Below, one piece after another: positions 27,367 to 30,466 of a stretch of 64,000 nucleotides of DNA. The translations under genes and the position numbers were made by a program. The DNA lies in assembly GCF_029094505.1 (NCBI RefSeq), contig NZ_CP119108.1:682001-746000 (forward strand), written 5' to 3'. Numbering within the stretch: position 1 is the stretch's first letter; each line of letters starts with the position of its first letter. Below the pieces are notes generated by a model, which was not told the DNA's origin, did not search any database, and saw only the letters and a list, made by a program, of their open reading frames with translations. This stretch comes from Microbacterium horticulturae (GTDB taxonomy: Bacteria > Actinomycetota > Actinomycetes > Actinomycetales > Microbacteriaceae).

Positions 27367-28329
27367 TCAGCGATCGCGATGGTCCTCCGGATGCAACCGC
27401 GGCCCTCGCCGCGGTTCGTGCACGCCGCTCAGCCGAATCAGCCGGATCACCCGCTGACGATGCCCCGGCCACGGTGCCAGCAGCCGCAGCATCCCCTCAT
27501 CATCCGTCCGGGCACCCGCCAGCGCGAACCCGACCTCGTGCGCGAGATGATAATCGCCGACGCTCACCGCATCGGCATCCCCCAGCGCGCGAGCGCGCGT
27601 CTCGGCCGCCGTCCACGCTCCGACCCCGCGGACGCTCGTCAGCGCGGCATCCCGATGCGATCCATCCGGCGCGGTGGTCACCGCTTTCACCAGAGACGAA
27701 CCCCGCCGGGCCGCCTCCACGATCGCGCGTGACTGCGGCGGTTCGACACCTGCGCGATGCCATGCCCACGACGGGATGCCGCGCCAGCCGTCGATCGTCG
27801 GCGGCGCGAACATGGGCGCGGGGGTGGGCCCTGGCGCACGCTCACCGAACCAGGTCAGCAGCCGCCGCCACGCACCGAACGCCTGGAGACCGGTCACCTT
27901 CTGCTCGAGGATCGCGCCGGCCAGCGCATCGAACACGCGATCGGTGCGACCGAGCCGCAGTCCCGGATGGCGCCGGTGGACCTCGGCGACGAGGGGATGC
28001 CGCGACGCATCGAAGCCCTCGAACGAATCGTCCGCCCCGCACAGCGCAGGAACCTGCGCGAGCGCCCACTCGCGGCCGGCACCCCAGGCGCCCGCACGGA
28101 TCACACCGGGCGAGACCTCGCGCAACGCGAGCGTCGCCACTCCGTCGGGAGTGCGGCTCGCGCGCCAGATCACACCCGAGACGACTGTGAACGACGGATC
28201 GTGCGCGCCGCGCTGTTGCGCGCCGACGGTGCGCAGCAGATCGAGGGGATGCCGCGGCCGATACTCGCTCTCGAGACGCCGACCGGGCGCGGGCCGAGGA
28301 TCGCGACGTGTCGTGACCTCGGAGAGCAT
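27367..28329 (-). CDS. HhH-GPD DNA glycosylase, AlkA-like (3-methyladenine glycosylase)
   Basis: 320 residues. The helix-hairpin-helix LTSVRGVGAWTAAETRARAL is followed by the catalytic Asp region SVGDYHLAHEVG, both as in AlkA-type glycosylases; ILEQKVTGLQAFGAWRRLL is the preceding helix. It removes alkylated bases by flipping them into the active site, starting base-excision repair. The N-terminal about 110 residues match the AlkA-N-like region. The C-terminal tail is Arg/Pro/His-rich. TAGGGT 6 nt before the ATG indicates a leaderless start. Confidence 0.9.
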   Translation of the reverse strand: MLSEVTTRRDPRPAPGRRLESEYRPRHPLDLLRTVGAQQRGAHDPSFTVVSGVIWRASRTPDGVATLALREVSPGVIRAGAWGAGREWALAQVPALCGADDSFEGFDASRHPLVAEVHRRHPGLRLGRTDRVFDALAGAILEQKVTGLQAFGAWRRLLTWFGERAPGPTPAPMFAPPTIDGWRGIPSWAWHRAGVEPPQSRAIVEAARRGSSLVKAVTTAPDGSHRDAALTSVRGVGAWTAAETRARALGDADAVSVGDYHLAHEVGFALAGARTDDEGMLRLLAPWPGHRQRVIRLIRLSGVHEPRRGPRLHPEDHRDR

Positions 28330-28366
28330 GCCACCACCCTAAGCGGTGACCAGCGACATCCCGGTG

Positions 28367-29104
28367 TCAGAAGCGGTCGGGCGACGGCGTGCCGTGTCCG
28401 TAGCGGATCACGACGTCGGCGTGCCGATCGAAGCGGTAGCCGACCCCGCGCACGGTGCGCACGATGTCTTCATAGCGGCCGAGCTTGGCACGCAGACGGC
28501 GCACGTGCACGTCGATCGTGCGCTCGCCCGGGGCGTCCTTCTCGGTTGAGCCCTGCCACAGCGAAGACACGAGCTCGCCACGATCGATCGTGCGGCCCTC
28601 GCGCAGCACGAGGTACTGCAGCAGCTCGAACTCCTTGAACGTGAGCGCCGCCGACTCACCGTCGATGACGACACGCTTGCGGGAGATGTCGACGGTCACG
28701 CGACCGGCACTGGCCGTCTCTTCGGGATCGGGCTCGCTCTTGGTGCGGGCGACGGCGCTCGGCTCCTGCAGAGCGCGACGGACGACGTCGACATCGCGAC
28801 CCCCGGCACCGACGGGTGCCAGGGCCACGGTGGCGTACGTCTCGGCGCCGGGGGCCACATCGGCGAGCGTGCGACGGAGCGCATCGACGATCGCGCCGAG
28901 CGAGACGCCCGACGCGGCGGCCTTGGCCTCATCGAAGCCGACGTAGAGGGCGAAGCCACGCGGCGTGGTGCCCGCGGGCAGGCTGCGCTGCGGTCCGCTG
29001 GGCGCGACGGGGGTCTCGGCGGGACGATCGGTCACCAGACGCAGAGTCGGGCGAGCGGTGGTGCTGGTGGCGGTGGGACGGTCGAGAAGGGCGGTGTTCG
29101 ACAT
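28367..29104 (-). CDS. Orphan OmpR/PhoB-type winged-helix regulator without receiver domain
   Basis: 245 residues from ATG 29104 with AAGGA about 9 nt upstream. The C-terminal about 95 residues are a clear OmpR-type winged helix: LTFKEFELLQYLVLREGRTI, RTIDVHVRRLRAKLG, TVRGVGYRF. The N-terminus lacks a receiver: no acidic pair, phospho-Asp or Lys motif; instead it starts with a Ser/Thr/Pro-rich stretch and a short mixed domain (RGFALYVGFDEAKAAASGVSLG) I do not recognise. It must therefore be controlled otherwise. A promoter 300 nt upstream first reads a Cys/Met-rich short ORF. Confidence 0.85.
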   Translation of the reverse strand: MSNTALLDRPTATSTTARPTLRLVTDRPAETPVAPSGPQRSLPAGTTPRGFALYVGFDEAKAAASGVSLGAIVDALRRTLADVAPGAETYATVALAPVGAGGRDVDVVRRALQEPSAVARTKSEPDPEETASAGRVTVDISRKRVVIDGESAALTFKEFELLQYLVLREGRTIDRGELVSSLWQGSTEKDAPGERTIDVHVRRLRAKLGRYEDIVRTVRGVGYRFDRHADVVIRYGHGTPSPDRF

Positions 29105-29306
29105 GGGATGAGTCCTTGACTGCGAGGACCCGGTGGTCGGCGAATCGACCGGAAACCGGGTACGGGTGTGTTGCGATCGCGGCCCGAAGCAGGGCCGGGT
29201 GCGAGGCATCCTTGCGCGGTGTGCGACGAGGTGCTCGGGGGCTTACCGCGCGACGACCTTCGAGGTGGAGAAGGAGGCGTGCGCGAGCCCGGCGGGGGTC
29301 ACCGAC
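29105..29306 (-). other. 200-nt leader between the short ORF and the winged-helix gene
   Basis: No gene is visible. GCGCGG and CCGCGC arms with a 27-nt loop (about 29203-29243) and an ACCCGG...CCGGGT fold close to the gene (about 29126-29160) are the only pairings seen; neither is a clear terminator. Its position between a short leader ORF and a regulator gene fits a transcript leader. Confidence 0.4.
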
Positions 29307-29408
29307 TCAGCGGCACATTCGACAACACATGGCAGCGTGGCACGGCATCATCATGCCGTTGGTCCCGTTCGCCTCCCAGGCGGACAGAGAGCGCACGTTG
29401 CTTGTCAT
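29307..29408 (-). CDS. Leaderless Cys/Met-rich short ORF (candidate leader peptide), 33 aa
   Basis: ATG at 29408, TGA at 29307-29309. The product starts MTSNVRSLSAWEANGTNG and ends MMMPCHAAMCCRMCR: four Cys and six Met in 33 residues, 8 of them in the last 15. The ATG is 7 nt from a CATAAT -10 whose TTGACG -35 is 18 nt further up, so the RNA would begin at or next to the ATG. Leaderless short ORFs with Cys runs are known in mycobacteria as cysteine-responsive attenuators. Here the next gene downstream is the orphan winged-helix regulator. That it is translated is inference from promoter position and codon pattern. Confidence 0.55.
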   Translation of the reverse strand: MTSNVRSLSAWEANGTNGMMMPCHAAMCCRMCR

Positions 29409-29415
29409 GTGCCCG

Positions 29416-29445
29416 ATTATGACCGATTGCTTCCCCGTGCGTCAA
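29416..29445 (-). promoter_or_regulatory. Near-consensus promoter for the Cys-rich short ORF
   Basis: On the minus strand TTGACG (29445-29440), 18-nt spacer, CATAAT (29421-29416). It is among the best -35/-10 pairs in the window. The predicted start falls on the ATG of the 33-aa ORF, 300 nt before the winged-helix gene. Confidence 0.65.
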
Positions 29446-29602
29446 ATCGCCCGGATGTCGCAAGAGATCTCTGACGGAATGTGTCAAATTGCTCAACGCG
29501 GCGGTCTGCTACCCGGTTTCTGACAGCCTGAGACACGGTCCCGGGGTGCGTGACAGGTTTCCCTCGGGCACAGGGTGCGCCGGGGTGGCAGACTGTCGCC
29601 TC

Positions 29603-30157
29603 GTGAAGATACGCATCGTGGGCACGTCGGGCTCGGGCAAGTCGCGCCTGGCCGAGCGCGTCTCGACGGTGCTCGGCGTGCCGCGGCTCGAACTGGACGC
29701 CGTCTTCTGGGACGCCGAGTGGACCTTCCGCGACCTCGACGAGGCGCACCGGATCATCACGGAGTTCGTCGCGGCGCACCCCGAGGGGTGGGTGATGGAC
29801 GGCAACTGGACCTCGCGGCTGGGCGACGCGCTCGACGGCCCCGACGGGGCCGATCTCACCGTCTGGATCGACCACTCCCGGGCGCGCACGCTGGGGCGGG
29901 TCGTGCGACGCACGCTCCGCCGGGCTGTGATGCGCGAGGAGCTCTGGCACGGCAACCGCGAGCGGCCGGGTTCATGGCTGAAGCTCGACCCCGAGGAGAA
30001 CATCGTGCTCTGGTCGTGGACGCAGCATCCGGTGGGGCGGGCGCGTCTCGAGCAGCGCATCGCCGCCGGCGAGCCGATCGTGCGGCTGCGCGGGCAGCGC
30101 GCGGTGGATGCCTGGATCCGCGCGCTGCGCGACGACGCCAGCGCCGGGCGGGGTTAG
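29603..30157 (+). CDS. P-loop nucleoside-kinase-like ATPase (topology modulation/adenylate kinase-like)
   Basis: 184 residues from GTG 29603. It opens MKIRIVGTSGSGKSRLAERV with a Walker A motif (GTSGSGKS), then LELDAVFWDAEW and GWVMDGNWTSR, typical of the small adenylate-kinase-like proteins annotated as DNA topology modulation (FlaR-like). They probably phosphorylate a nucleotide or small molecule; the substrate is not known. CAGACT lies 8 nt before the GTG. The GNAT gene follows after 9 nt. Confidence 0.85.
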   Translation: MKIRIVGTSGSGKSRLAERVSTVLGVPRLELDAVFWDAEWTFRDLDEAHRIITEFVAAHPEGWVMDGNWTSRLGDALDGPDGADLTVWIDHSRARTLGRVVRRTLRRAVMREELWHGNRERPGSWLKLDPEENIVLWSWTQHPVGRARLEQRIAAGEPIVRLRGQRAVDAWIRALRDDASAGRG

Positions 30158-30166
30158 CCTGGCGTC

Positions 30167-30466
30167 GTGAGTGATCTCCGTTTCGCGAACGAACCCGATG
30201 CGTCGCGTTACACGCTGCATCGCGGGGAGGATCTGGTCAGCGTCCTGGACTACCGCGACGACGGACGAACCGTCGCCCTCACCCGCGCGTACACCGTGCC
30301 GCCCTTCCGTGGCAACGGCTACGCAGGTGAACTCGTCGAGCGCGCCGTCGCCGATCTCGAGCAGCACGGCGGGCGCGAGGTGCTGCCGGTGTGCTGGTAC
30401 GTCGCGGACTGGTTCGCGGCGCACCCCGAGCGCGGCGGCATCCTGCGTCGGCGCTCCGCGTCGTAG
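30167..30466 (+). CDS. GNAT-like (YjdJ-type) small acetyltransferase
   Basis: 99 residues from GTG 30167. RAYTVPPFRGNGYAGELVERAVADLEQHGG holds the acetyl-CoA-binding loop (RGNGYAGEL) and is followed by VLPVCWYVADWFAAHPE, the pattern of short single-module GCN5-like proteins. The acceptor is unknown. TAGCCT 6 nt before the GTG suggests its own leaderless message although the P-loop gene ends only 9 nt upstream. Confidence 0.88.
   Translation: MSDLRFANEPDASRYTLHRGEDLVSVLDYRDDGRTVALTRAYTVPPFRGNGYAGELVERAVADLEQHGGREVLPVCWYVADWFAAHPERGGILRRRSAS

Follow-up and report, generated by a model that had tools for sequence, protein, structure and literature searches.

A leaderless, cysteine-tailed upstream ORF conserved ahead of an orphan winged-helix regulator in Microbacteriaceae: a candidate cysteine-responsive attenuator

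The upstream ORF, its promoter and the regulator gene

The window, that is, the whole stretch of 64,000 nucleotides that was analysed, contains a short upstream ORF (uORF) on the minus strand ahead of a gene for a winged-helix (wHTH) regulator. Along the minus strand, a -35 element TTGACG (29440..29445; TTGAC in 49/50 genus loci) is followed after 18 nt by a -10 element CATAAT (29416..29421), which lies 7 nt before the uORF ATG at 29408; a CATAAT, AATAAT or GATAAT hexamer lies 6–7 nt before the ATG in 50/50 genus loci. The uORF (29307..29408, 33 codons) translates as MTSNVRSLSAWEANGTNGMMMPCHAAMCCRMCR, with four Cys and six Met, and its stop codon at 29309–29307 is followed by a leader of about 200 nt, the Shine-Dalgarno (SD) sequence AAGGA (29113..29117) and the wHTH ATG at 29104. 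This promoter is the sole sigma-70-like site found in 27900–30300 (shuffles, mean 0.0), and its spacing predicts an RNA 5' end at 29408, on the uORF start codon. The promoter TTGACG-N18-CATAAT and the 33-codon ORF with four Cys and six Met were all found as described in the original prediction.

The uORF matched no Pfam or NCBIfam model, and Rfam returned nothing up to E 1 in 28900–29700 of the window; in seven relatives, the one Rfam match (L226) lay outside the leader and below the cut-off (22.4 against 40 bits). In the window genome, a single exact match to the 14-mer TGTTGYCGAATGTG was found. Of the 50 genus loci, only that of this genome showed the PCHA stretch (Cys23, His24); the genus consensus at this point reads P/A-G-R-V-V. 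Core promoters of Microbacterium (29416–29445 in the window) also carry, as a possible mark of autoregulation, GAC/GAC/GTC at 10-bp steps from the -35 element, a pattern that is weak in other genera; a 10-bp period is expected of OmpR-type direct-repeat sites.

The downstream gene (28367..29104, minus strand) encodes an orphan OmpR/PhoB-type winged-helix regulator of 245 aa. It shares the Trans_reg_C DNA-binding domain (residues 149–225) with the OmpR/PhoB-family response regulators but lacks their receiver domain; no other Pfam match was found, and residues 1–148 matched no Pfam family at E 0.01. The earlier description of an orphan regulator without a receiver is borne out, since Trans_reg_C is the only Pfam match. 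An orthologue (E below 1e-50) is present in 56/59 genus genomes, the remaining three being incomplete, and a match at E 1e-22 in 156/160 genomes and 84/85 genera of the family sample, so that the regulator is nearly universal in Microbacteriaceae. In the order sample, 53/198 genomes have a match at E 1e-24, four other families among them. The names given to the protein are of the domain type or hypothetical throughout, among the 120 matches listed. The structure model from a single sequence was poor (pLDDT 37.9), and that from 21 sequences reached pLDDT 69.1, best over the wHTH domain. One record, Planococcus sp. APC 4015 (L145), carries a Microbacterium-type wHTH protein that is 76 percent identical, and is therefore probably mislabelled or contaminated.

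Conservation in Microbacteriaceae and occurrence in other families

We read 50 of the 56 wHTH orthologue loci of the genus (30 + 20) and 80 loci of other genera. For an anchor-free test, short ORFs (12–60 codons) upstream of the wHTH gene were ranked by promoter score and the top one was picked, with its sequence unconstrained. The pick was a leaderless uORF with an Arg-Met tail at 50/50 Microbacterium and 75/80 other-genus loci, and at least two Cys were present among its last nine residues at 50/50 and 71/80, respectively. This recurrence under sequence-free selection confirms the claim that the Cys/Met-rich ORF is not a product of chance. Relatives that keep the promoter but lose the frame or the Cys codons, for which a check had been suggested, proved rare: among the 130 loci, L039, L057 and L094 had no such uORF, and the tail was altered in L109, where it is changed to MMCRRSVCAFEFSA, and in L100. 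At the last locus, which belongs to another genus, the promoter and the N-terminal part of the uORF (MTVHALPPTSFEAPGNAGMMP) are retained and the Cys-Arg-Met tail is gone, so that it offers a natural test of the role of the tail.

An anchored test used CGAATG, which was found in 123 of the 130 loci and was absent in seven. The start chosen by promoter score (with an ATG bonus) in any frame was in frame with this anchor in 121/123 loci, and these anchored loci with an in-frame start form the sets of 121 loci used below. Drawn by eye, the uORF consensus is MT.....LTS.EA.G.AGMMMP...VMCCRMC[AR]. The tail 17-mer ATGTGYTGYCGAATGTG occurs in 74 of the 160 family genomes, once in each, and its reversed pattern gave no match; all 74 sites lie upstream of a wHTH match on the same strand, 124–497 nt away.

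In a second family, which we infer to be Micrococcaceae, a Cys-Arg-Met-tailed leaderless uORF precedes the wHTH gene at 27 of 53 loci, with a GTG start in 25 of the 27 (for example, VNTNSTASAAAATLISRLAGSAMCCCRMHA). The scan flagged 29 loci, of which L243 and L245 are false; at both, the wrong ORF was picked and the tail TGCTGTTGTCGAATGC is visible further downstream, so the second-family count is probably above 27/53. The last nine residues hold three Cys in 12 of these uORFs and two in 14 (at least two in 26/27). The Met run is absent, H, Q or S usually takes the place of the third Cys, and the Arg codon is CGA in 27/27, in a scan that allowed any CGN. The observation extends far beyond the window: this arrangement of uORF and transcription factor gene is a fixed feature throughout the family and recurs in a second one.

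Several second-family loci, including L220, L226 and L269, show TTGTTAC direct repeats about 21 bp apart around the -35 element, upstream of the uORF, and a near-palindrome GTCTCAC-N-ATGTGGAC further upstream; these are possible operators, perhaps autoregulatory. A search of four genomes for the second-family promoter palindrome TGTCTCAC-N-ATGTGAGACA, with up to three mismatches, yielded none in two genomes and, in each of the remaining pair, a single site other than the uORF promoter, so that no regulon emerged. Two further families hold Met/Cys/Arg-rich leaderless candidates with MLCVRD and MMRRQPS endings. In the L237 and L238 leaders, the MMRRQPS end is encoded by GTCAGCC, the exact complement of GGCTGAC directly downstream, which looks like an alternative-structure attenuator. 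Upstream of the wHTH gene, L233 and L234 have leaderless candidates holding MLCVRD or MMRCVRG, and L234 has PhoB-like direct repeats GTCATAAAACGTCATAAAAG upstream.

Codon selection and base pairing in the uORF and leader

The Cys tail of the window uORF reads ATG TGT TGT CGA ATG TGC (29313..29330, minus strand). Among sequences of standard length (45 genus, 41 other-genus), third-position entropy at Cys codons 28, 29 and 32 is 0.83 in the genus and 0.99 in other genera, against 0.05–0.09 and 0.31–0.35 at positions 1–2. A variable third position next to nearly fixed first and second positions points to selection for what the codons encode. In the Arg-Met tail, all 125 anchor-free Microbacteriaceae loci use CGA for Arg, a codon that makes up 6.8 percent of the Arg codons of 22 window ORFs, and conservation of this CGA AUG pair is at least that of the Cys codons; Cys28 is replaced in 5 to 15 percent of sequences. 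The first Cys codon is TGT in 86/121 and TGC in 19/121 loci, and TGT makes up 25 percent of Cys codons in the window ORFs. In codons 2–17 all three positions are about equally variable, and codons 9, 10, 12, 13 and 14 are letter-invariant in 45/45 standard-length genus sequences, which together indicate a constraint at the nucleotide level. At codons 9–11, several other genera (e.g., L040, L096) have ACCTCCTT, which is identical to the 3' tail of 16S rRNA; it could pair with the wHTH SD, for which the map gives a weak signal (z about -0.5).

Concerning the Met run, its codons lie at the apex of a hairpin, H1 (ACGGCAU-GAUG-AUGCCGU, 29342..29359, minus strand), which is present in the minimum free energy (MFE) fold of the window. 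Covariation was assessed in 44 distinct family windows from 71 of the 121 loci; the remaining loci, 27 of them in a different register and 23 having another loop or lacking the run, were excluded. The family form is GCCGGCAU-GAUG-AUG-N-CCGGC, with 93.8 percent of cells paired, 13 double-sided changes against 1.8 in shuffles (0/500 as high) and a covariation score of 0.169 against 0.077. H1 was ahead of shuffles on all five measures (0–2 of 500 as high). Slid controls fell below H1 on three measures (cells paired at most 63.4 percent, double-change cells at most 11, covariation at most 0.108) and matched or exceeded it on two (double-change pairs, where they reached 6 and H1 had 4, and further pair types, where they reached 11 and H1 had 10). 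Neither H1 (mean z 0.15 and 0.16) nor a possible hairpin H0 over codons 7–15 (29364..29388, minus strand; from alifold and the codon table), which is less stable than synonymous variants, showed excess stability against synonymous-codon variants. Because those variants are equally stable, the case for H1 rests on covariation. Since Met has a single codon, its RNA and codon roles are inseparable by synonymous change.

Several elements lie in the leader on the minus strand. CAACACA (29167..29173) complements the Cys tail (UGUGUUG, 29323–29329), as seen in the complementarity map, the window MFE and RNAalifold of 50 genus leaders, in which GUGUUGU pairs with the segment directly before the RBS hairpin. 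That hairpin, ACCCGG...CCGGGU (29128..29161), lies directly upstream of the RBS and is supported by 41–47 of 50 paired sequences per position and by the window MFE; folding of the window leader as a whole was 1.7 sd better than shuffles (5/100 as good). TCATC (29107..29111), between SD and start, is a weak form of the Met-run complement ATCATC, which is present in 59/121 relatives: within [-60,+3] of the wHTH start it occurs in 27/50 genus and 32/71 other-genus loci, and at RBS-like starts of other ORFs in 7/139 (p 8e-17 against wHTH), these control starts not being independent because the 80 Microbacterium-type loci from which they come are largely syntenic. Its position varies (before the SD, between SD and start, or in an upstream hairpin loop). 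ATCATC is commoner with an intact ATGATGATG (51/87 against 8/34, p 0.001), and L064, L101 and L106 keep it without a Met run.

A looped-duplex test of uORF windows against the leader showed no clear excess of pairing (tail mean z -0.31 in the genus and 0.01 in other genera). In contiguous-helix tests, chosen after that outcome was known, the longest helix between tail window -9..+9 and the RBS-proximal leader gave, relative to shuffles, z -0.84±0.16 in the genus, a weak -0.33±0.16 in other genera and -1.44±0.22 in the second family (-1.65±0.28 for -3..+12; 29 rows, including the two false hits). For uORF windows that do not touch the tail, z was -0.22 to +0.37 in Microbacteriaceae and -0.38 to +0.13 in the second family. 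Long exact complements match the locus's own tail in L067 (TGTGCTGTCGA with TCGACAGCACA) and L107 (CGCGAATGTG with CACGTTCGCG). The strongest dips in a segment map were those of the Met run against the SD region (z -1.87±0.28 in the genus, -1.00±0.23 in other genera) and, in the genus, of the Cys tail against the region before it, [-60,-20] (-1.34±0.19); as the species are related, these z and the above p values are not independent tests. In other genera the tail gave -0.62 and -0.65±0.15 against [-110,-55], weaker genus dips were seen for window -69 against the SD (-0.75) and window -39 against [-110,-55] (-0.73), and all values for [-200,-110] lay between -0.17 and +0.29. In the second family, GCATTCG, a complement of the CGAAUG of the tail, was found in 19/27 leaders, often 30–50 nt before the wHTH start.

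The leader between uORF and SD is C-rich and G-poor (C 43.0, G 24.5 percent; C above G in 121/121 loci, against 58 percent upstream of the promoter), a composition that suits Rho-dependent termination.

Proposed cysteine-responsive attenuation and competing explanations

In mycobacterial polycysteine attenuators, downstream expression reportedly rises under Cys limitation, elongation speed depends on Cys according to a citing paper, and stalling within the Cys tract reportedly lets the ribosome block an RNA segment that could otherwise mask the RBS (Canestrari 2020). As described in PMC4633059, mycobacterial leaderless short ORFs lie at the message 5' end, carry a C-terminal Cys cluster, are conserved in place and have one gene or operon downstream; those rich in Cys precede cysteine-metabolic or hypothetical genes. 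The present uORF shares with the mycobacterial polycysteine ORFs (Shell 2015; Canestrari 2020) the leaderless start, with -10 to ATG distances of 6–7 nt in 50/50 genus loci, and the clustered C-terminal Cys. It differs in preceding an orphan wHTH gene in another group of Actinobacteria, in the invariant CGA-AUG and, in Microbacteriaceae, in a Met-codon hairpin complementary to the RBS region.

The uORF would act, with a probability of roughly 0.6, as a Cys-responsive leaderless attenuator as in mycobacteria, here controlling a regulator. The promoter would start the RNA at the uORF ATG, and spacing and frame conservation suggest that the uORF would be translated leaderless. The speed of the ribosome over the end-clustered Cys codons (C28 C29 R30 M31 C32) would then report Cys-tRNA supply. 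When Cys is plentiful, the ribosome would leave, and the Met-run and Cys-tail segments could pair at and directly upstream of the wHTH RBS; when Cys is short, a stalled ribosome would hold both segments and the wHTH protein would be made, a direction taken from mycobacteria. Rho-dependent termination may add to this effect through the C-rich, G-poor leader. Because a transcription factor is what the switch would control, Cys supply sensed at this one message would be passed on to a whole regulon.

Simulated stalls at the Cys codons did not raise SD accessibility (+0.013±0.013 in the genus, -0.021±0.013 in other genera, -0.046±0.017 in the second family), and in the genus start-codon access fell by 0.063±0.024. 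As the simulations gave no SD exposure, the switch and its direction are what we infer. The invariant CGA AUG, which a pure Cys counter does not need, counts against the attenuator reading, and the sulfate-assimilation locus L240 of the window genome has no leaderless Cys uORF.

An arrest peptide is the main rival, since conservation of the CGA AUG pair equals or surpasses that of the Cys codons. In this reading the sequence of the nascent CRM(C) would itself cause the stall, possibly with the aid of the rare CGA codon, in response to an input other than Cys supply (a drug, a small molecule or translation stress), and the Cys codons would be part of the stall motif instead of a sensor. The 125/125 Microbacteriaceae and 27/27 second-family loci with CGA before Met, and the replacement of Cys28 in some sequences, speak for this, as does toiL, a uORF ahead of topAI in E. 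coli that senses drug-induced stalls and unmasks an RBS (PMC12121999). The toiL case has in common with ours a uORF, an RBS-masking RNA and a link to Rho termination, but it senses ribosome-targeting antibiotics, and its abstract makes no mention of a leaderless start or Cys codons (PMC12121999). We nevertheless hold an arrest peptide to be unlikely: at least two Cys end the peptide in 26/27 second-family uORFs too, and CGAAUG has complements near the RBS (GCATTCG, above), so that base pairing can explain its invariance. Pairing could also be taken as the whole mechanism, with the peptide irrelevant and uORF translation merely keeping the Met-run and Cys-tail RNA off the RBS, which would report general leaderless initiation. 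The two uORF segments complementary to the RBS region, the covariation of H1 and the even variation of codons 2–17, a nucleotide rather than an amino-acid pattern, fit such gating; the third-position variation at Cys codons 28, 29 and 32 argues for selection on codon meaning, and H1 is no more stable than its synonymous variants, which leave this explanation improbable.

The original prediction had an attenuator sensing Cys and perhaps Met; its leaderless Cys-tailed uORF tied to one orphan wHTH gene stands (74/74 17-mer sites), and its Met sensing is not supported. In both sets, 97 percent of standard-length sequences have Met at position 20 and as many have it at 21, and in the genus the start codon was predicted to be more accessible once the Met run was masked (+0.144±0.038, up in 30/50), as a Met sensor or a joint Cys and Met sensor would have it. 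However, the effect in other genera was just +0.037±0.023, several species have another residue in place of Met19, the uORFs of L020, L063, L064, L088, L101 and L106 lack an in-frame ATGATG, and the second family has no Met run. A covarying RNA hairpin with the run at its apex, and with a loop complementary to sequence at the wHTH RBS, accounts for the run better than a Met sensor does, and Met sensing has a low probability. Distinctly doubtful, too, is a two-input device whose codons double as antisense of the target RBS and in which Cys and Met supply act oppositely on the wHTH gene: the Met codons (AUGAUGAUG) would be held in H1 or paired with CAUCAUCAUG over the wHTH start, a ribosome on the Met run would free the start codon, and one on the Cys codons would open H1, so that the Met-run loop would go onto the start and expression would fall. 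Finally, the nascent Cys/Met-rich peptide might itself sense a metal or thiol. Cys, Met and His are copper ligands, and the uORF of the window genome has a His; CruR is a precedent for a copper-responsive uORF, and a paper on CutF (PMC9973294) reportedly offers another. CruR (DUF2946) of Bordetella, which responds to copper, is likewise a Cys-containing uORF and has a Rho-dependent switch between uORF and target (PMC9426467). It has 145 residues, is predicted to be exported and has its CXXC 45 residues before a RAPP arrest motif (PMC9426467), whereas the present 33-residue uORF has neither motif, no predicted export and no Pfam match. The clustered Cys, in the last 2–6 residues, would still be inside the ribosome tunnel at termination, and second-family uORFs mostly have H, Q or S in place of the third Cys; metal or thiol sensing is very improbable.

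Cys-responsive attenuation is the reading we prefer for the uORF. Among the matches listed in a literature search, which left most subscription journals outside, no title concerned a uORF before this regulator or in Microbacteriaceae. Compared with the mycobacterial attenuators, what is new is the regulator as target, the other actinobacterial families, and the sensor codons complementary to the target RBS region; the mycobacterial accounts of Cys-codon attenuation concern metabolic operons. That sensor codons overlap RBS-complementary sequence lends itself to a direct test. If true, the proposal would mean that these bacteria have a regulator that responds to nutrient supply through the ribosome, with no receiver domain to take in the signal, and it would offer a way into what this orphan regulator, nearly universal in the family, does.
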